From positions 1-32,290 of the forward strand of contig JASJBG010000009.1 of NCBI GenBank assembly GCA_030066625.1: DNA of 32,290 nt, in the 5' to 3' direction. Each line of letters begins with the position of its first letter. Positions within the stretch are counted from its first letter, which is position 1. Shown here one piece after another: positions 15,364 to 23,583 of the stretch. The stretch comes from Woeseiaceae bacterium (GTDB lineage: Bacteria > Pseudomonadota > Gammaproteobacteria > Steroidobacterales > Woeseiaceae). Below the pieces are notes generated by a model. The model did no database searches. It saw nothing but the letters and a program-made list of their open reading frames with translations, and was not told the DNA's origin. The position numbers and the translations under genes are program-made.

Positions 15364-15390
15364 TTGACACGATATGCGCATAACTATAGT
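15364..15390 (+). promoter_or_regulatory. Promoter of the arginine operon
   Basis: TTGACA (15364-15369, perfect) and TATAGT (15385-15390, five of six) are separated by 15 nt, slightly short of the 17-nt optimum. Transcription would begin just before the second ARG-like box, about 35 nt ahead of the argR ATG at 15433. Confidence 0.6.
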
Positions 15391-15412
15391 CTCATGCGCA
15401 TATTTATTCATT
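15375..15412 (+). promoter_or_regulatory. Tandem ArgR operator (ARG boxes)
   Basis: Two 18-bp boxes, 15375-15392 and 15395-15412, both begin TGCGCATA, agree at 12 of 18 positions and are two bases apart. The second (TGCGCATATTTATTCATT) matches 12 of 14 core positions of the E. coli ARG consensus TGAATwwwwATTCA. The pair covers the -10 and the probable start point. I recall that E. coli argR also has boxes two bases apart instead of three. Autorepression by ArgR is the likely outcome. Confidence 0.6.
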
Positions 15413-15432: not shown

Positions 15433-15882
15433 ATGCCGAACCCGAATACAGAGCAGATCGTACGCCGCGAAGCCATACGCGAACGGCTGGCCGTGGGTCC
15501 CGTCGATACGCAGCAAAGCCTCGTTGAACACCTGACGTCGCAGGGCCTCCGGGTCACGCAGTCCAGTGTGAGTCGGGACTTGCGGGATCTCGGCGCCATC
15601 AAGACTGCCGAGGGCTATACCCTGCCGGCGGCCCACCACGACGCCGATCACGAGCTCGATGCGGTCTCGGCGCTGCTCCGTGACGCGCAGACAGCCGGAC
15701 CCAATCTCTTGGTGATCAGGACAGCGATCGGCGCCGCGCAGCGAGTCGCCCTGGCCCTCGATCGCAGCGGCTGGCCGGAGATCGTCGGCAACATCGGCGG
15801 CGACGACACCGTATTCGTCGCGACGACCGGGAGCGCCGGCCAGAAAAACCTCTTGGCAAGGATCGAGCGCGCCCGCGCCTGA
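15433..15882 (+). CDS. argR: Arginine repressor
   Basis: The ATG at 15433 gives 149 residues, normal for ArgR; an in-frame ATG at 15394 lies inside the operator and is unlikely. The N-terminal winged helix has REAIRERLAVGPVDTQQSLVEHL and TQSSVSRDLRDLGAIK, with the SSVSRDL recognition helix. The C-terminal oligomerisation/arginine-binding domain includes NLLVIRTAIGAAQRVALALD and IVGNIGGDDTVFVAT (the GDDT arginine-contact motif). The hexamer represses arginine genes when arginine is bound. It leads the operon, 28 bases before argG, so it would control its own and the biosynthetic genes' expression. Confidence 0.95.
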   Translation: MPNPNTEQIVRREAIRERLAVGPVDTQQSLVEHLTSQGLRVTQSSVSRDLRDLGAIKTAEGYTLPAAHHDADHELDAVSALLRDAQTAGPNLLVIRTAIGAAQRVALALDRSGWPEIVGNIGGDDTVFVATTGSAGQKNLLARIERARA

Positions 15883-15910
15883 TCGACGCCGACTATCGGA
15901 GCTTCTCTCC

Positions 15911-17131
15911 TTGAGTAACGACAGCGATACATCACCCATCATCCTTGCGTTTTCGGGCGGGCTGGACACCTCGTTCTGCGTCCCATGGCTGAAGGAGACC
16001 TACGGCCGCGACGTCATCACGGCCTGCGTCGATACCGGCGGCATCGATGCGGCTGCCGCGGCCGATCTCGAGGAGCGCGCACTCGCACTCGGTGCTATCG
16101 AACACGTGCTGCTCGACACCAAGGACGATTTCTTCGACAGCGTTATTCGTCACCTGATCGCGGGCAACGTGCTGCGCGGCAATGCGTATCCGCTGTGCGT
16201 GGGCGCCGAGCGCGGCCTGCAGGCAGAGCGCCTCGCGCAGCTGGCCACGGACCGGCAGGCGACCACGGTTGCGCACGGCTGCACGGCGGCGGGCAACGAC
16301 CAGGTTCGCTTCGAGGTCGCGCTGCGCACCCTCAACCCGGGGCTCGAGGTACTGGCGCCGGTTCGGGACAACAGCTGGGTGCGCGACGAGCAGCTCGCGT
16401 ATCTCGAGGAACGCGGCTTGCCGCTGCCGCCGCAGGGCTCCGCGTACTCGGTCAATCGCGGCCTGTGGGGCATCACGATCGGCGGCCGCGAGACGCTGAC
16501 GAGCGAAAATTCCCTGCCCGAGTCGGCATGGGTGCTCTCGGCCGACGCCTACGCGCAGCCGAAGCCCGAGGCGCGGCACACGCTCGAGTTCGACGCGGGC
16601 ATCCCCGTCGCGCTGGATGAAGAACCGCTGTCGCCGGTCGAGCTGATCGAAACGCTCGAGACGATTGCCGGCAGCTACGGCATCGGCCGCGGCATACACC
16701 TGGGCGACACCGTGCTCGGTACCAAGGGTCGCGTCGCCTTCGAGGCACCCGCCGCGATTACGTTGATCACGGCGCACCGCGAACTCGAGAAGCTCGTGCT
16801 CAGCGCGCAGCAGGCGCGGATCAAGGACACGCTGGCCGCAACCTATGGTGACCTTGTTCACGAGGGCAAGCAGCTCGACCTCGTTTGCCGTGACGTCGAG
16901 GCCTTTTTTGACAGCTCGCAGAAACGCGTGACGGGAACGGTCACCTTTACGCTGCGGCCGGGGAGCCTGTTCATCGACGGCGTCACGTCACCCTACTCGC
17001 TCTTGGCCGCGACAAAGGGGATTTACGGCGAGGCCGCCGGTGAGTGGACCCCGGCGGACGCGCTCGGCTACTCGCGCATCCTGTCCCTTTCAGGATCGCT
17101 GCAAACGCGTGCGGGCGGGGCCGGATCGTGA
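15911..17131 (+). CDS. argG: Argininosuccinate synthase
   Basis: The TTG at 15911 has GGAG at 15898-15901 and gives 406 residues. The enzyme ligates citrulline and aspartate using ATP. The N-type ATP pyrophosphatase loop AFSGGLDTS is at residues 13-21, with ITACVDTGG and VAHGCTAAGNDQVRFE (the NDxxRFE active-site stretch) further on, and GRGIHLGDTVLGTKGR in the C-terminal domain. The AFSGGLDTSFCVPWLKE form resembles the Bacteroidetes/Xanthomonas branch in my memory, consistent with the gene order downstream. Its stop overlaps the start of the DUF1611 gene by four bases (GTGA). Confidence 0.95.
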   Translation: MSNDSDTSPIILAFSGGLDTSFCVPWLKETYGRDVITACVDTGGIDAAAAADLEERALALGAIEHVLLDTKDDFFDSVIRHLIAGNVLRGNAYPLCVGAERGLQAERLAQLATDRQATTVAHGCTAAGNDQVRFEVALRTLNPGLEVLAPVRDNSWVRDEQLAYLEERGLPLPPQGSAYSVNRGLWGITIGGRETLTSENSLPESAWVLSADAYAQPKPEARHTLEFDAGIPVALDEEPLSPVELIETLETIAGSYGIGRGIHLGDTVLGTKGRVAFEAPAAITLITAHRELEKLVLSAQQARIKDTLAATYGDLVHEGKQLDLVCRDVEAFFDSSQKRVTGTVTFTLRPGSLFIDGVTSPYSLLAATKGIYGEAAGEWTPADALGYSRILSLSGSLQTRAGGAGS

Positions 17132-18180
17132 AATCGGTCGTCGTCGACAAGGTCGCCTCGGTCGCGCAGCACGCGGAGCTCGGCCGCGAACTCCGACTGT
17201 CCGCGGACATCCCGTGTGAGGAAGGCGTGCTCATTGCAGCGCGAGTGCTCAACAACAAGACCCGCTACAACCAGCTCGAACTGACCTCGGGCCGCATGGC
17301 AACCGTTACCCAGGGCGACATCGTCGTCGGGGCGCTCGGCCATCGCAACGCGCTGCGCGGCTACTCCGGCCACCTGCCCTCGGAACTCGGCGTCGGCGAC
17401 ACCGTGCAGCTCCTGAACATCGGCGGCGTCATGGGTATCTGCGATTCCGCCAATCCGGATGTCGGACCGCCGTTCAACTGCGAGGTGCTCGGCACGGTTC
17501 TTCATTTCCCCTATCTCGGCGAACGCATCGGCGTACCGGCGCGCGTCGGCGAGACTGTGCTCGACCCCAGCGCCGCCTTCGACACGGCCGGCGTCCCGGT
17601 GGTCGCGCTGGCCGGTACCTGCATGGACTCGGGCAAGACGGCAGCAGCGTGTGCCATCGTTGGCCGCCTTCGTCACCTCGGTCACGAAGTCGCGGCCTGC
17701 AAGGCGACGGGCGTTTCGCTGCGCCGCGACATTCTCGCGATGGAAGACGCCGGCGCCCACGATACGATGATCTTCTCGGACCTGGGTGTTGTGACGACGA
17801 CGGCTGCCAACGGGCCCGCATTGACGCGCGCCCTGTTGACGTCGCTCGCGGCGGAAAGCCCGGACGTGATCGTCCTCGAACTCGGCGACGGCCTGCTCGG
17901 CGAATACGGTGTCGAAGCCATACTGAGCGATGAGGCAATCCGCGAGGCGCTGACGGCCGTCGTCCTGTGCGCGAATGACCCCGTCTCCGCGTGGGGCGGC
18001 GTGAAGATTCTGCGTGAACAGTACGGTATCGAACCTGCCGTCGTTACCGGCCCGGCAACCGATAATGCCGTCGGAGTTTCACAGATCGCCCATCGAACCG
18101 GACTGCGCGCCATCAATGCGCTGACGAGCGGCGTGCTGCTTGGCGACACCGTCGCCGAGTCAATCGGAGCCGGGAAGTGA
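17128..18180 (+). CDS. DUF1611 (DgcN-like) P-loop protein embedded in the arginine operon
   Basis: The GTG at 17128 overlaps the argG stop (GTGA) and gives 350 residues, the usual DUF1611 length. An N-terminal domain (about 1-150) precedes a P-loop domain with Walker A AGTCMDSGKT at 162-171, resembling BioD/CobB-type folds, then VAACKATGVSLRRDI and VIVLELGDGLLGEYG. I recall that DUF1611 members include DgcN, a D-glutamate N-acetyltransferase. Here it is locked between argG and argC by four-base overlaps on both sides, in an operon lacking any known glutamate N-acyltransferase. My inference is that it makes N-acetyl- or N-succinyl-L-glutamate, replacing ArgA. Alternatives are a regulatory or D-amino-acid role. 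Family assignment is firm; function is a hypothesis. Confidence 0.82.
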   Translation: MKSVVVDKVASVAQHAELGRELRLSADIPCEEGVLIAARVLNNKTRYNQLELTSGRMATVTQGDIVVGALGHRNALRGYSGHLPSELGVGDTVQLLNIGGVMGICDSANPDVGPPFNCEVLGTVLHFPYLGERIGVPARVGETVLDPSAAFDTAGVPVVALAGTCMDSGKTAAACAIVGRLRHLGHEVAACKATGVSLRRDILAMEDAGAHDTMIFSDLGVVTTTAANGPALTRALLTSLAAESPDVIVLELGDGLLGEYGVEAILSDEAIREALTAVVLCANDPVSAWGGVKILREQYGIEPAVVTGPATDNAVGVSQIAHRTGLRAINALTSGVLLGDTVAESIGAGK

Positions 18181-19238
18181 GCGACCCTCTGAACGCCGTT
18201 GTGCTCGGGGCCACCGGCTATGTCGGCGGGGAGCTGCTGCGGCTTATCGCCGGCCATCCCGGCCTCGCGCTCGCAGCCGCAGTGTCCGAGAGTCGCGCCG
18301 GCGATCCGATCGGCGACGTGTTCCCGCACCTCCGCTCGGCCCGCGGCGGCCAGTCGTTCTCGGCGCACGCGGACTGGGCGGAGCAGATCGATCGCGGCGC
18401 GCGTGTCGCGTTGTTCTCGGCCGCGCCGCACGGCGCGTCCGCGGCGATCGTACAGGCCGCCCTCGACAAAGCGGCAGCGCGCGACTTCGACATACACGTC
18501 GTCGATGCGTCGGCCGACTTTCGTTATTCGAACGGCGACGACTACGCAGCGGTATACGGTGCGGCTCACGGTGCGCCCGAGCTGCTCGAACAGTTCGCCT
18601 CTGGCGTGCCGGAACATGTCGAGGGCGCACCTGCTCCACACGTTGGCCATCCGGGCTGCTTTGCGACCGCCGTGCTGCTTGCCGCCGTGCCGCTGCTCAA
18701 GTCCGGGCTCTCCGAGCCCGAGCTGTTCGTCACCGGCATCACCGGCAGCACCGGTTCCGGGCGCAGCCCGCAGCCCGGAACGCATCACCCGGAGCGGCAC
18801 AGCAATCTGTATGCCTACAAGCCGCTCGGACACCGGCATACGCCCGAGATCGTCCGTTTCTCGGCCGCCGCCTCGGGCGTAGAGCCCGTGCTCAATTTCA
18901 TCCCGCACTCGGGACCGTTCGCACGCGGCATCTATGCGACCGTGCAGGCGAAGGCGAAGGACGGCGCGACGGCAGATGCGCTGAAACAGGCGCTCGCCGA
19001 GTACTATGCCGACGCGCCGTTTGTCGAGGTCGTTGACGGTACGCCGCGACTCAAGGATGTCGTCGCCAGCAATCGCTGCCAGCTCGGCTGTGCCGCCAGC
19101 GAGGACGCGCTGGTTGTCATGTCGGCGATCGATAATCTCGTCAAAGGCGCGGCCGGCGGCGCCGTACAGTGGATGAACCGTCTCTGGGGCCTTCCCGAAA
19201 CCGAGGGCCTTGAGTCGCCCGCGCCTGCCTGGACCTGA
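18177..19238 (+). CDS. argC: N-acyl-gamma-glutamyl-phosphate reductase
   Basis: The GTG at 18177 overlaps the DUF1611 stop by four bases; the protein has 353 residues. ArgC reduces N-acyl-glutamyl phosphate to the semialdehyde with NADPH. The Rossmann loop GATGYVGGEL is at residues 11-20, the catalytic Cys161 lies in VGHPGCFATA, and GSTGSGRSPQPGTHH and FIPHSGPFARGIYATV are typical of the family. The enzyme is normally described for acetyl substrates, but the acyl group cannot be read from the motifs. A substrate with a succinyl group is possible given the transcarbamylase downstream. Confidence 0.94.
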   Translation: MSDPLNAVVLGATGYVGGELLRLIAGHPGLALAAAVSESRAGDPIGDVFPHLRSARGGQSFSAHADWAEQIDRGARVALFSAAPHGASAAIVQAALDKAAARDFDIHVVDASADFRYSNGDDYAAVYGAAHGAPELLEQFASGVPEHVEGAPAPHVGHPGCFATAVLLAAVPLLKSGLSEPELFVTGITGSTGSGRSPQPGTHHPERHSNLYAYKPLGHRHTPEIVRFSAAASGVEPVLNFIPHSGPFARGIYATVQAKAKDGATADALKQALAEYYADAPFVEVVDGTPRLKDVVASNRCQLGCAASEDALVVMSAIDNLVKGAAGGAVQWMNRLWGLPETEGLESPAPAWT

Positions 19239-19253
19239 GTGAACAAGAGGAAG

Positions 19254-20441
19254 ATGGCGAGCGAGATCATGAGTGCATTCGACCAACTACGCGACCGCGA
19301 GGTGGCCGCGACGATTCCGGTGTATGGACAGCTGCCGTTCGTACCCGTGCGTGCGGCCGGCTGCGACATCGTCACCGACGATGGCCGATGGATTCTCGAC
19401 CTGTACGGCGGCCACGCCGTTGCGGCGCTCGGCTACAGTCATCCGCGGCTGACCAGCGCGATCCAGAACCAGAGCAAGGAACTCCTGTTCCAGAGCAACG
19501 CCGTGGCGCTCGACATACGCGCCCACGCTGCCGAACTGCTGATCTCCGTCGCGCCCGAATCGCTGCGCCGGGCGTTTTTTGTCAACTCCGGCGCCGAGGC
19601 GAACGAGAACGCACTCCGCATGGCGCTCGTCGCGACCGGCCGTTCGAAGATTCTCGCCATCAGTCATGGCTTCCATGGACGTACGGCGGCGGCCGGCGCC
19701 GTGACCTGGAAATCGGAAAAGTGGTACGGCTTTCCGGCCAGACCTTTCGATGTCGATTTCATTCCGCGCGACGACTGCCAGGCCGCCATCGACATGATCG
19801 GCGACGACATCGCGGCCGTGATTTTCGAGCCCGTGCAGGGTGTCGCAGGTGCCTACGACCTCTCGCAGGAGTTCGTGGAGACACTCCGTGACGAGACCAG
19901 CCGGCACGGCGCCCTGCTGATTGCGGACGAGGTTCAGTCGGGCATGGGCCGCTCCGGGCAGTTCTTCGCCTGCCAGGCGTACGCCATCGAGCCGGACATC
20001 CTGACCAGTGCCAAATCGCTCGGCGGCGGCATCCCGACGGGCGCCGTGCTGGCGAGCGACGAGGTTGCCGGCTGTTTCGGGCTCGGCGCGCTCGGGACAA
20101 CCTTCGGCGGCGGACCGGTGGCCGCGGCCGCCGTCGTCGCCGTCATCGAATCGATACGCGATGAGGGGCTGTTGAAGAACGTGCGCGAGCGCGAACAGCA
20201 GATCCGCGAGCAGTGCGTCGTCGGGCCGGTCAAGAAGATCCGCGGCATGGGGCTGCTGCTCGGGCTCGTGTGCGACCGCCCCGCCCGTGAAGTCCGCGAC
20301 GCGCTGCTCGAGCACGACATACTGACGGGCACGAGCAGCGATCCCGACGCCCTCCGAATCCTCGCACCGCTGGTCATCGAGGACCAGCACGTCAACCGCT
20401 TGTCTGCGGCGCTGTCGACGATCGCGCCCGCGGATGCCTGA
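19254..20441 (+). CDS. argD: N-acylornithine aminotransferase
   Basis: The chosen ATG at 19254 yields 395 residues; a GTG at 19239 directly after the argC stop and an ATG at 19269 are alternatives, and the GAGG at 19247-19250 does not clearly favour one. This class III PLP aminotransferase has VNSGAEANENALRMA, SHGFHGRTAAA, the Asp-containing LLIADEVQSGMGRSGQF, and the Schiff-base Lys254 in TSAKSLGGGIPTGAV. It transaminates N-acylglutamate semialdehyde to N-acylornithine. Context makes the arginine role nearly certain, though related enzymes also accept succinylornithine. Confidence 0.93.
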   Translation: MASEIMSAFDQLRDREVAATIPVYGQLPFVPVRAAGCDIVTDDGRWILDLYGGHAVAALGYSHPRLTSAIQNQSKELLFQSNAVALDIRAHAAELLISVAPESLRRAFFVNSGAEANENALRMALVATGRSKILAISHGFHGRTAAAGAVTWKSEKWYGFPARPFDVDFIPRDDCQAAIDMIGDDIAAVIFEPVQGVAGAYDLSQEFVETLRDETSRHGALLIADEVQSGMGRSGQFFACQAYAIEPDILTSAKSLGGGIPTGAVLASDEVAGCFGLGALGTTFGGGPVAAAAVVAVIESIRDEGLLKNVREREQQIREQCVVGPVKKIRGMGLLLGLVCDRPAREVRDALLEHDILTGTSSDPDALRILAPLVIEDQHVNRLSAALSTIAPADA

Positions 20442-20462
20442 AACCCGCATAAGGAATGCACG

Positions 20463-21473
20463 ATGAAAGCGTTTAACGATCTTGCCGATTTTTCGACCGA
20501 AGAAATCCAGGGGCTGCTGGAGCTCGCCAATCGGCTCGACGAACGACCCGAGCCTGAGGCCCTCAAGGGCAAGGTGCTGTCGCTCCTGTTCCTGAGCCCT
20601 TCGCTCCGAACGCTCGCATCTTTCCAGGCAGCGATGACCCGGCTCGGTGGCGGCTCGTTCGTCATCTCGCCGGACATGTCGATTCACGGCCTTGAAACGC
20701 GACCCGGCATCGTTATGGACGGCACGGCGGCAGAGCACATTCGCGAAGCCGTGCCGGTCATCGCCTCGTACGGCGATGCGATCGGTATCCGCGCCTTCGC
20801 CGAGCGCAAGAACCTCGAAAACGACATGGCCGAGAACGAGTTCAACGCGCTGACGCAGCTCATTCCCGACACGCCTTACATAAACATGGAGTCGGCGATG
20901 GGCCACCCGTGCCAGAATCTCGCCGACTGGAAGACGCTCGACGACTATTCGATCCCGGCAAACGGCGGCAAGTTCGTGCTGAGCTGGGCCTACCACCCGA
21001 AGGCACTGCCGCTGGCCGTACCGGCATCGACGCTGTACACGGCCGCGCGACGCGGCATGGACGTCACTGTGCTGCGGCCCGAGGGCTTCGAGCTCCCTGA
21101 TGCGGTCATGCAAAAGGCTAAAGAGGCAGCGGCATCCGCCGGCGGTGCGGTCGTGGAAACCGACGATCGCGCCGAGGCGATGGAAGGCGCACACGTCATC
21201 TATGCGAAGTCCTGGTCGTCCACGCGCCACTACGGCGACCGGCTCGCGGACCAGAAGCTCAGGGAAGGCCACCTCGACTGGTGCGTCGACGAGCCCTGGT
21301 TCGCGAACGCACAGGATGACTGCCGCTTCATGCACTGCCTGCCCGTGCGGCGCGGCGTCGTCGTCAGCGAGCCGGTGCTCGACGGTCCGCGCAGCATCGT
21401 GATTCACGAAGCGCGCAACCGGATGCTCGCGCAGATGGCGGTGCTGCACCAGATGCTCGGAGCGACAACATGA
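20463..21473 (+). CDS. argF': N-acylornithine transcarbamylase, closer to the N-succinylornithine type
   Basis: The ATG at 20463 gives 336 residues. It transfers the carbamoyl group from carbamoyl phosphate to an N-acylornithine. The carbamoyl-phosphate loop is SLRTL (47-51) rather than STRTR or SMRTR, and HCLPVRR is at 291-297. In remembered structures, Glu92 of Xanthomonas acetylornithine transcarbamylase and Pro90 of the Bacteroides succinylornithine enzyme set specificity; the matching residue here is Ala90 in MDGTAAEH. The carboxylated Lys302 of the acetyl enzyme is Met325 here. LETRPGIVMDG and LPLAVPAS also look more Bacteroides-like. Succinylornithine is therefore the favoured substrate, by inference. 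argB starts inside its stop codon. Confidence 0.88.
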   Translation: MKAFNDLADFSTEEIQGLLELANRLDERPEPEALKGKVLSLLFLSPSLRTLASFQAAMTRLGGGSFVISPDMSIHGLETRPGIVMDGTAAEHIREAVPVIASYGDAIGIRAFAERKNLENDMAENEFNALTQLIPDTPYINMESAMGHPCQNLADWKTLDDYSIPANGGKFVLSWAYHPKALPLAVPASTLYTAARRGMDVTVLRPEGFELPDAVMQKAKEAAASAGGAVVETDDRAEAMEGAHVIYAKSWSSTRHYGDRLADQKLREGHLDWCVDEPWFANAQDDCRFMHCLPVRRGVVVSEPVLDGPRSIVIHEARNRMLAQMAVLHQMLGATT

Positions 21474-22402
21474 CCTCCAAGAAAGACCGCGCGATTGTCG
21501 TTTCGGCACTGAAGCACGCGGCGCCCTACATTCGCCTCTTCAAGGGCAAGGTATTCGTACTGAAGGCCGGCGGTGAGATCTTCGCGGATACTGACCGCAC
21601 GCTCGCCCTGATGGAACAGGTCGGCATTCTCCACCAGGTAGGCATCCGAGTCGTCCTGATCCACGGCGGCGGCCCGCAGTCGACCGAGCTGGCCGCTGCG
21701 CTCGGCGTAGACACCACGTTCATCGATGGCCGCCGCGTTACCGACGATGCGTCCCTGGACGTCGCGACAATGGTCCTGAACGGCCAGATCAACACTCGCG
21801 TACTCGCCGCCTGCCGTGACCTGAAGATACCGGCGGTCGGCATCTCGGGCGTCGATGCCGGGCTGATCCGGGCGCACCGGCGACCGCCCGTCGAGCGCGA
21901 AGGCGAGGACACCGTGGACTACGGTTTTGTTGGTGATATCGACTCGGTCGAGGCGGACATACTGCAGAAGCAGCTCGACAACGGCCTGATGCCGGTCGTA
22001 AGCCCGCTGTCCTGCGACGAGTCCGGAACCTTGTTGAACATCAATGCCGACACGGTCGCCGCCGCAATCGCGGCGGAACTCGACGCGGAGAAGCTGATTC
22101 TGGCCACCGGCGCGCCGGGCATCCTCGAGGACCGCGAAGATCCGCGGTCGCTAATCAGCTACATCGACCGCCGTGCGCTCGACAAGCTGCGCGACGACGG
22201 CAAGCTCGCCGACGGCATGCTGCCTAAAGCCGCGGCTATCGACTCCGCGCTGGCCAACGGCGTCAAGCGCGTGCATGTCATTTCCTACAAGCTGCCCGAC
22301 AGTCTGCTGCTCGAGGTTTTCACGAACGAAGGCACCGGCACGCTCGTCGTCAACGACATCGAAGCGCTGACGCCTGCCGAGCAGGGCGACGACGCACCAT
22401 GA
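21470..22402 (+). CDS. argB: N-acylglutamate kinase
   Basis: The 310-residue protein starts at the ATG overlapping the transcarbamylase stop (ATGA). It phosphorylates the gamma-carboxylate of N-acylglutamate. The amino-acid kinase fold is shown by FVLKAGGEIF (Lys32 contacts ATP), VVLIHGGGPQSTEL near residues 61-74, FIDGRRVTDDASLDVATMVL, GISGVDAGLI, and LLNINADTVAAAIAAEL. It ends without the C-terminal GNAT domain that makes Xanthomonas ArgB a fused kinase/synthase, so it cannot supply the first step. Feedback-inhibition status is unclear. argH overlaps its stop by four bases. Confidence 0.94.
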   Translation: MTSKKDRAIVVSALKHAAPYIRLFKGKVFVLKAGGEIFADTDRTLALMEQVGILHQVGIRVVLIHGGGPQSTELAAALGVDTTFIDGRRVTDDASLDVATMVLNGQINTRVLAACRDLKIPAVGISGVDAGLIRAHRRPPVEREGEDTVDYGFVGDIDSVEADILQKQLDNGLMPVVSPLSCDESGTLLNINADTVAAAIAAELDAEKLILATGAPGILEDREDPRSLISYIDRRALDKLRDDGKLADGMLPKAAAIDSALANGVKRVHVISYKLPDSLLLEVFTNEGTGTLVVNDIEALTPAEQGDDAP

Positions 22403-23583
22403 GCCGACTGTGGGAGAAGGGCCTGCCTCTCGACGAGCGCGTGCTGCGCTACACGGCCGGTGAGGATCACGTGCTCGACGCGCGGCTGGTGCCATACGAC
22501 GTGCTCGGCTCGACCGCACACGCGGAGATGCTCGCGGCGCAGGGATTGATCGAGGACGCCGACTTCGCGGCGATTCGGGATGGTCTCGAAAAACTCGGTG
22601 CAGCGCATGCCGACGGCGAGTGGTCGATCTCGCTGGAAGACGAAGACGTCCACACGGCACTCGAAACGCGGCTTACCGCCGCCATCGGCGACGCGGGTGC
22701 CCGCCTGCACCTCGGCCGATCCCGGAACGACCAGGTGCTGACCGCGCTCAGGCTGTACCTGCTGGACGCGGCTGACGACCTTGCCGGACGCGTGGCGGGA
22801 CTGCGCGAGAGCCTGGCAGCGCTCGCCGCTCGCCAGGGCGACGTGACACTGCCGGGGTACACGCACATGCAGCAGGCGATGCCCTCGTCGGTCGCGCTCT
22901 GGTGCGGCGGATTCGACGAGGCGTTTGCCGACGCCGTTGACGGCCTCGGGGCGGCGCGACGCCGCATGGACAGGAACCCGCTAGGCAGCGCGGCCGGCTA
23001 TGGCACACCCGGCCTGCCGCTCGACCGGGACCGCACGACGCAGTCGCTCGGCTTTGGCCTCACCCAGCAGCCGGTGACCGCAGCGCAGCTATCGCGCGGC
23101 AAGGCCGAGAGCGGCCTCCTGTTCGAGATCACGCTGCTCTTGCAGGATGTCGGTCGGCTCGCGTCCGACCTGCTCCTGTTCTACACGAAGGAATTCGCCT
23201 TCGTCACGCTCAGCGCGGAAACAACGACGGGTTCGTCGATCATGCCGCAGAAACGCAATCCCGACGTGCTCGAACTCCTGCGCGCGTCGTCGGCAACAGC
23301 GCAGGCCTGTCTCGACGAAGCGCTGATGATCACGGCGAAACTGCCGTCGGGATACCAGCGCGACCTGCAGCGGCTCAAGAGCCCGCTGTTCCGGGGTATC
23401 GACGTCGCCATCGACAGCGTGGACATCATGGCTTTCGTCCTCGATGGCGTTGCCTTCGTGCCGGCAAATATCGAACCGGATGCGAGCATCCACGCCACCG
23501 AAGAAGCCTACCGGCTCGTTACCGAGGAGGGCCTGCCGTTTCGCGATGCGTACCGCAAGGTCGGCGCGAAGTACGCGAAATAA
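22399..23583 (+). CDS. argH: Argininosuccinate lyase, short C-terminus
   Basis: The 394-residue protein starts at the ATG overlapping the argB stop (ATGA). It cleaves argininosuccinate to arginine and fumarate. HLGRSRNDQVLTALRLYL, TLPGYTHMQQAMPSSVALW and the signature TGSSIMPQKRNPDVLELLRA are all present, so the catalytic core is intact. It stops at FRDAYRKVGAKYAK, roughly 40-60 residues before most ArgH proteins end. No continuation is found in the 50 bases before lptM, and further stops follow at once. The truncation therefore seems natural or lineage-specific. It is the last biosynthetic gene of the operon. Confidence 0.93.
   Translation: MSRLWEKGLPLDERVLRYTAGEDHVLDARLVPYDVLGSTAHAEMLAAQGLIEDADFAAIRDGLEKLGAAHADGEWSISLEDEDVHTALETRLTAAIGDAGARLHLGRSRNDQVLTALRLYLLDAADDLAGRVAGLRESLAALAARQGDVTLPGYTHMQQAMPSSVALWCGGFDEAFADAVDGLGAARRRMDRNPLGSAAGYGTPGLPLDRDRTTQSLGFGLTQQPVTAAQLSRGKAESGLLFEITLLLQDVGRLASDLLLFYTKEFAFVTLSAETTTGSSIMPQKRNPDVLELLRASSATAQACLDEALMITAKLPSGYQRDLQRLKSPLFRGIDVAIDSVDIMAFVLDGVAFVPANIEPDASIHATEEAYRLVTEEGLPFRDAYRKVGAKYAK

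Follow-up and report, generated by a model that had tools for sequence, protein, structure and literature searches.

We propose that the third gene of an arginine operon from a Woeseiaceae bacterium encodes a new kind of first-step enzyme. The DNA analysed, hereafter the window, is the 32,290-nucleotide stretch at positions 1 to 32,290 of contig JASJBG010000009.1 (assembly GCA_030066625.1); open reading frames and family models give, at 15433-23583 and all on the + strand, the gene order argR-argG-X-argC-argD-argF'-argB-argH. In our judgement X is probably, though well short of certainly, the first arginine-synthesis enzyme of this lineage and would acylate the amino group of L-glutamate, most likely with succinyl. 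The role is assigned because X and the NAT acetyltransferase domain have complementary distributions in related genomes, because X is kept in three operon layouts, and because a small genome that carries X has no other recognised candidate. To our knowledge, the known first-step arginine enzymes are GNAT acetyltransferases or ArgJ; if the assignment is correct, a P-loop protein belonging to no Pfam family would add a third type of enzyme at this step. That GNAT enzymes and ArgJ are the known solutions is partly backed by the passages of PMC3827942 and PMC7311316 that concern them.

The genes of the operon are listed below, with model scores and cut-offs.

15433..15882, + strand: argR, arginine repressor; PF02863 and PF01316; TIGR01529 at 100 bits, below its cut-off of 130
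15911..17131, + strand: argG, argininosuccinate synthase; PF00764/PF20979; TIGR00032 at 298.7 bits (cut-off 268.2)
17128..18180, + strand: X, two-domain P-loop protein, proposed N-succinyl-L-glutamate synthase; 350 aa, GTG start, start conserved
18177..19238, + strand: argC, N-acyl-gamma-glutamyl-phosphate reductase; TIGR01850 at 308 bits (cut-off 233.6)
19239..20441, + strand: argD, N-acylornithine aminotransferase; best model acetylornithine transaminase at 338 bits, below its cut-off of 457
20463..21473, + strand: argF', N-acylornithine carbamoyltransferase with succinyl-type residues; NF003384 at 327.5 bits (cut-off 288)
21470..22402, + strand: argB, N-acylglutamate kinase, 310 aa, without acetyltransferase domain; TIGR00761 at 208.8 bits (cut-off 151.3); PF00696 (AA_kinase) only
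22399..23583, + strand: argH, argininosuccinate lyase; TIGR00838 at 302.5 bits (cut-off 279.5)

Every arg gene was backed by family models, ArgR and ArgD scoring below the NCBIfam cut-offs. X shares four bases with argG (17128-17131) and four with argC (18177-18180), GTGA both times. An earlier, sequence-only reading of this DNA had reported this gene order, the four-base overlaps on both sides of the middle gene, and an operon devoid of argA, argJ, GNAT genes and ArgB-GNAT fusions; coordinates and models agreed on each point, none of the four being found within the operon and ArgB being an AA_kinase only. ArgE was also not found there. The window ArgB matched the argA model over its kinase part only, and it scored above the argB cut-off but short of those set for the listed LysW-kinase models, which does not point to a LysW-type pathway. 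Pfam matched no acetyltransferase domain in X or in ArgB, so that neither protein has the GNAT/NAT domain by which ArgA, S-NAGS and ArgB::NAT are recognised.

The distributions of X and of the NAT domain (PF04768) were compared in 119 related genomes, among them the window's own (G000, 89.5% complete). X orthologues (at least 59% identity) were present in 92 genomes and NAT in 15; no genome had both and 12 had neither. The 92 correspond to 96 matching genomes minus G024, G027, G030 and G100, which hold only a paralogue of about 30% identity; G006 was counted on a 43-residue match at a contig edge, and G041, G049 and G063 on split matches. NAT genomes were confined to families f4, f5, f7, f8, f14 and f16. 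In the 10 fused N-acetylglutamate synthase (NAGS) loci read, the order was argF'-argG-(gap)-argB-argC-argH, with an argB open reading frame of 437-457 aa, the length of a fusion; one such long ArgB reached 640 bits with the model for fused acetylglutamate kinase, while its adjoining gap gene reached 472 bits with that for acetylornithine deacetylase. ArgJ (PF01960) had no match in any of the 119 genomes, including the window's own (10 of 14 control genomes were positive), and the argA model was above cut-off in none of them (1 of 14 controls). The complementary distribution of X and NAT, together with the failure to find ArgJ and argA, suggests that Xanthomonas-type and X-type operons replace each other within one order.

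The genomes with neither X nor NAT are G024, G075, G078, G081, G032, G093, G105, G115, G036, G097, G108 and G111 (G111, G113 and G115, which have no X match, were identified by elimination). G111 carries a cut argE and an argF', and the fusion may be absent from its assembly only. Those of families f9 (G032, G093, G105, G115) and f13 (G036, G097, G108) had weak ArgF' matches or none; they are possibly arginine auxotrophs or users of another route.

A survey of neighbouring genes across genomes, suggested with the sequence-only reading, found that X stays in arg clusters. Among the best 80 of 547 relatives, X lay between argG and argC in all 80 loci, with no other recognised gene between them (arg genes and five others were looked for). 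The full eight-gene order was present in 15/15 loci chosen from the 92 X genomes, the window excluded; three of these contigs are also among the 80. The closest matches to X among named genomes were mostly labelled Woeseiaceae, Gammaproteobacteria or Proteobacteria. A scan of 370 genomes of the class gave matches in 31, including ten orthologues (above 330 bits), five inside the order and five outside it. All five outside were in arg clusters, four as argD-argF'-argB-argH-argG-X-argC and one, on a short contig, as argG-X-argC. A scan of 397 genomes of the phylum (E<=1e-40) gave one further X, in the layout argR-X-argC-argB, in which X accompanies the genes of steps 2 and 3; the other arg genes were not in the 17.5 kb read. 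None of the six X genomes outside the order had argA above cut-off. In a phylogenetic tree, arg-cluster X (22 sequences) was separated, with one change, from two paralogue groups, one with a neighbouring M20 hydrolase (8 sequences) and a third group (13 sequences), on a branch with a support of 78/95 and present in 71% of bootstrap trees.

A first-step enzyme encoded elsewhere was also looked for. In the window's own genome, ArgJ had no match and the sole match of the argA model at E<=0.001 was ArgB itself, as the sequence-only reading would have it, within an assembly that is 89.5% complete. With its 17 PF00583 GNATs, this genome taken by itself could still harbour a NAGS that escaped recognition. 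By the models run, the cleanest single genome without another recognised first-step candidate is G029 (1.6 Mb, 98% complete, X present): the one GNAT that PF00583 finds there is RimI (107.9 bits, cut-off 86.4), PF00583 being the only Pfam GNAT model run. These data bear on the view that X serves the operon as an accessory or regulatory ATPase, with N-acylglutamate being made elsewhere by a route that escaped recognition, such as another GNAT or a D-glutamate DgcN route. The bigger X genomes do hold unassigned GNATs (17 in G000), a few of them weakly argA-like, and strong PF07755 (DgcN-type) proteins, above 160 bits, occur in 18 of the 40 genomes searched (L001-L018); however, G000 had no PF07755 match, G029 had no PF00583 GNAT other than RimI, and a protein with a purely regulatory role should hardly show such complete exclusion with the NAT fusion. 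We consider such an accessory role quite improbable.

The acyl group of the pathway was deduced from ArgF'. The passages of PMC4581275 on the subject distinguish N-acetylornithine from N-succinylornithine carbamoyltransferases by Glu92/Asn185/Lys302 versus A, S, P, V or Q at the first position, P at the second and V, I or E at the third; the same key residue (position 90) is applied in PMC7311316, as far as its relevant part goes. The window ArgF' has A/P/V at the positions of X. campestris Glu92/Asn185/Lys302. In 88 X-type ArgF' rows the residues at 92, 185 and 302 were A (84), P (3) or V (1), then P (88), then V (74), A (10) or E (4), whereas the 10 fused-NAGS rows had E (10), N (10), and K (8) or Q (2). 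The X-type rows comprise the window, 15 loci from the order, 4 from outside it and 68 of the 80 loci, and amount to 85 distinct ones, as the pairs L077/L144, L078/L117 and L089/L182 each represent one contig; the other 12 of the 80 loci were dropped as they lack a near-full-length ArgF', and five orphan ArgF'-like proteins were not pooled with these rows. Columns were set by alignment with X. campestris PDB chains (chain number minus 20); 3l02, 3l05 and 3m4n differ mutually at column 92, and 3m4n differs from the other two at 302, and we take the three to be engineered mutants. Because X-type ArgF' carry the published succinyl-type residues and fused-NAGS ArgF' the acetyl-type ones, the acyl group of the pathway is probably succinyl, not acetyl. 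The NCBI acetylornithine carbamoyltransferase model nevertheless scores the window ArgF' (20463-21473) above cut-off; since an acetyl model thus accepts a protein of succinyl type, automatic annotation probably misnames it, and, if so, ArgF' proteins of this kind can be flagged as probable succinyl enzymes named by an acetyl model.

The orphan second ArgF'-like proteins (46-50% identity) are from families f5 and f16 (L060:8073-9062, L061:5937-6917, L062:1976-2956, L064:8026-9015, L065:614-1594). No arg gene was found near them, and they carry an altered HCLP motif and Ser or Gly at position 302.

X matched no Pfam family at E<=1e-3, and at E<=1 gave only a sub-threshold MobB match (0.018). The sequence-only reading had labelled it DUF1611 and had given it the first arginine step without a GNAT. 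Membership of DUF1611 is rejected: PF07755 had no match in the window X at E<=1 or 1e-3 and matched only weakly 4 of 10 related sequences (X and paralogues; best 2.1e-5), and a profile comparison against 13 genuine DUF1611 proteins gave X a probability of 3.7% and an E-value of 0.011. The proposed role fared better, in view of the exclusion with NAT, the three layouts and G029. Structure modelling, based on 34 and 28 sequences drawn only from the window and the best 80 of the 547 relatives, predicts that X pairs a beta-rich N-terminal domain of unnamed fold with a P-loop domain (SIMIBI) resembling those of BioD, CTP synthase and DUF1611. The DUF1611 fold match lay in this C-terminal domain and was about as good as those to CTP synthase and dethiobiotin synthetase, which are about 16% identical to X; X differs from the latter two by its extra N-terminal domain and its genomic setting. 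The Walker A motif is intact (GTCMDSGKT), with a canonical GKT where the DUF1611 consensus is GKK, which slightly favours nucleotide use by X. As far as these searches show, X would be a previously undescribed, non-orthologous protein that fills a known pathway step.

DgcN transfers acetyl from acetyl-CoA, and X could by analogy be a DgcN-like acetyltransferase that makes N-acetyl-L-glutamate in an acetylated pathway. X has the C-terminal P-loop fold in common with the DUF1611 proteins; X lacks a PF07755 match, CTP synthase and dethiobiotin synthetase match it about equally, and all 88 X-type ArgF' rows lack both Glu92 and Asn185. An acetylating X thus seems unlikely.

In the pathway we prefer, X would succinylate L-glutamate on its amino group, giving N-succinyl-L-glutamate; ArgB, ArgC and ArgD would convert this to N-succinylornithine, and ArgF', acting as a succinylornithine carbamoyltransferase, would produce N-succinylcitrulline. 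DapE may then take off the succinyl group, a task that could fall to a different M20 hydrolase in some genomes, before ArgG and ArgH complete arginine. BioD-like/SIMIBI enzymes activate substrates via acyl phosphate. From the SIMIBI P-loop domain and its intact Walker A motif we infer that the donor would be either succinyl-CoA, or ATP plus succinate via an acyl phosphate.

Deacylation is the second step to be accounted for. Xanthomonas-type ArgE was above cut-off in exactly the 15 fused-NAGS genomes of the 119, by a model that is blind to other ArgE types (0/14 controls above cut-off). M20 peptidases numbered from 1 to 10 matches in each of 18 X genomes searched, and M20 proteins scoring 100-152 bits with the ArgE model were present in at least ten X genomes (G088, G025, G101, G095, G034, G021, G006, G117, G060 and G022). 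DapE was found in the three X genomes checked: as the single M20 match in G106 (100% complete; 554.6 bits, cut-off 284), with one 40-bit M20 match in G099, and in G029 with a 480-residue M20 protein that has, by eye, an apparent signal peptide. No dedicated desuccinylase is encoded in the operon; since DapE removes succinyl groups, it is a natural candidate for this function in a succinylated pathway.

The lack of ArgE from the operon, which the sequence-only reading did not mention, makes a deacylase or transacylase role for X conceivable. X might deacylate N-acylcitrulline, or transfer the acyl group to glutamate in an ArgJ-like cycle, one gene thereby replacing NAGS and ArgE: X-type operons hold neither, one gene lacks an assignment where two steps are to be filled, the Xanthomonas-type ArgE is above cut-off only in fused-NAGS genomes, and the single M20 match of G106 is DapE. 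On the other hand, DapE is itself a possible desuccinylase, further M20 proteins elsewhere (such as those of G088 and G025) could be deacylases, the P-loop of X is of nucleotide type, and one lineage has X with argC and argB, which act early. On balance this role is unlikely, though it deserves to be kept in mind. Quite improbable, too, is that X makes the arginine pathway cyclic, whether as an N-succinylcitrulline:glutamate transsuccinylase or as a P-loop enzyme responsible for priming as well as recycling succinyl; if true, an unrelated fold would replace N-acylglutamate synthase and ArgE, as an independent counterpart of ArgJ, which works at the ornithine stage.

Several points weigh against X being the first-step enzyme of a succinylated pathway. 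We know of no activity for X or for a close homologue. The profile link of X to DUF1611/DgcN, the acetyltransferase precedent, is weak, and the X tree has long branches that meet. Neither X nor NAT was found in 12 of the 119 genomes, and PF04768, which matched none of the 14 control genomes, is blind to GNATs of other kinds. For the Bacteroides-type GNAT (BT3761) the check was indirect, by PF00583 in G029. The 17 PF00583 GNATs of the incomplete G000 assembly were not individually assigned, and GNATs weakly like the argA acetyltransferase domain occur in some X genomes, among the matches listed (G074, 42.3 bits; G040, 36.1; G022, 35.8), as well as in G323 (32.2 bits). In ten of the 88 X-type ArgF', the residue corresponding to Lys302 is Ala, which the published list does not include. 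Finally, X operons lack ArgE as well, a gap that X could fill instead or in addition.

Two known systems can be compared with X-type operons. The succinylated arginine pathway of Bacteroidetes, so far as PMC7311316 sets it out, uses the GNAT BT3761, the succinylornithine transcarbamylase BT3717 and the desuccinylase BT3549, and its first-step gene lies, by locus-tag number, near other arg genes, as X does here. The two are alike in the succinyl-type residues of ArgF' and in making citrulline on an acylated intermediate, but they differ in the first-step gene (GNAT versus P-loop X), in the lack of a desuccinylase gene from the operon described here, and in their hosts, the X system occurring here in Woeseiaceae and in certain further groups of Pseudomonadota. 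The Xanthomonas-type operon (ArgB::NAT NAGS-kinase and N-acetylcitrulline deacetylase), carried by sister families within this order, follows a similar carbamoyltransferase logic, but has an acetyl-type ArgF' (E/N/K or Q), a fused NAT and ArgE, and lacks X. If the preferred assignment holds, a succinylated pathway would exist in these Pseudomonadota besides Bacteroidetes, and X would complete arginine prototrophy in Woeseiales, which the part of PMC7082342 on their abundance puts at 1-22% of retrieved 16S sequences in marine sediments.

Upstream of argR lies a putative operator:

15395..15412, + strand: ARG-box-like operator (putative); differs from the consensus at 2 positions (at 3 on the opposite strand)

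In a shuffle control, 0.15 such sites were expected on average, and two or more matches were obtained in 5 of 100 shuffles. A TTGACA/TATAGT-like pair noted by eye (15364-15390, spacing 15) adjoins the site. Because the ARG-box-like site sits upstream of argR, the operon looks to be under ArgR control.

The window's own genome also encodes an X paralogue of about 28% identity (L059:9106-11947, G000:C7), which has an M20 hydrolase gene and a flavin-reductase-like one as neighbours, and this trio recurs in seven further loci (L070-L074, L190, L193). The neighbouring hydrolase is only suggestive of an X family that attaches acyl groups for later removal by a hydrolase. A third X-like group (about 30% identity) occurs in other groups of the class (L192:466-3245, L194:6270-9034, L195:8251-11089, L198:6688-9476), where the genes adjoin a gene of about 570 aa that, by eye, resembles an ABC transporter half. 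The proposed role of X, if true, would offer a first way into the function of X and of these two uncharacterised paralogue groups.

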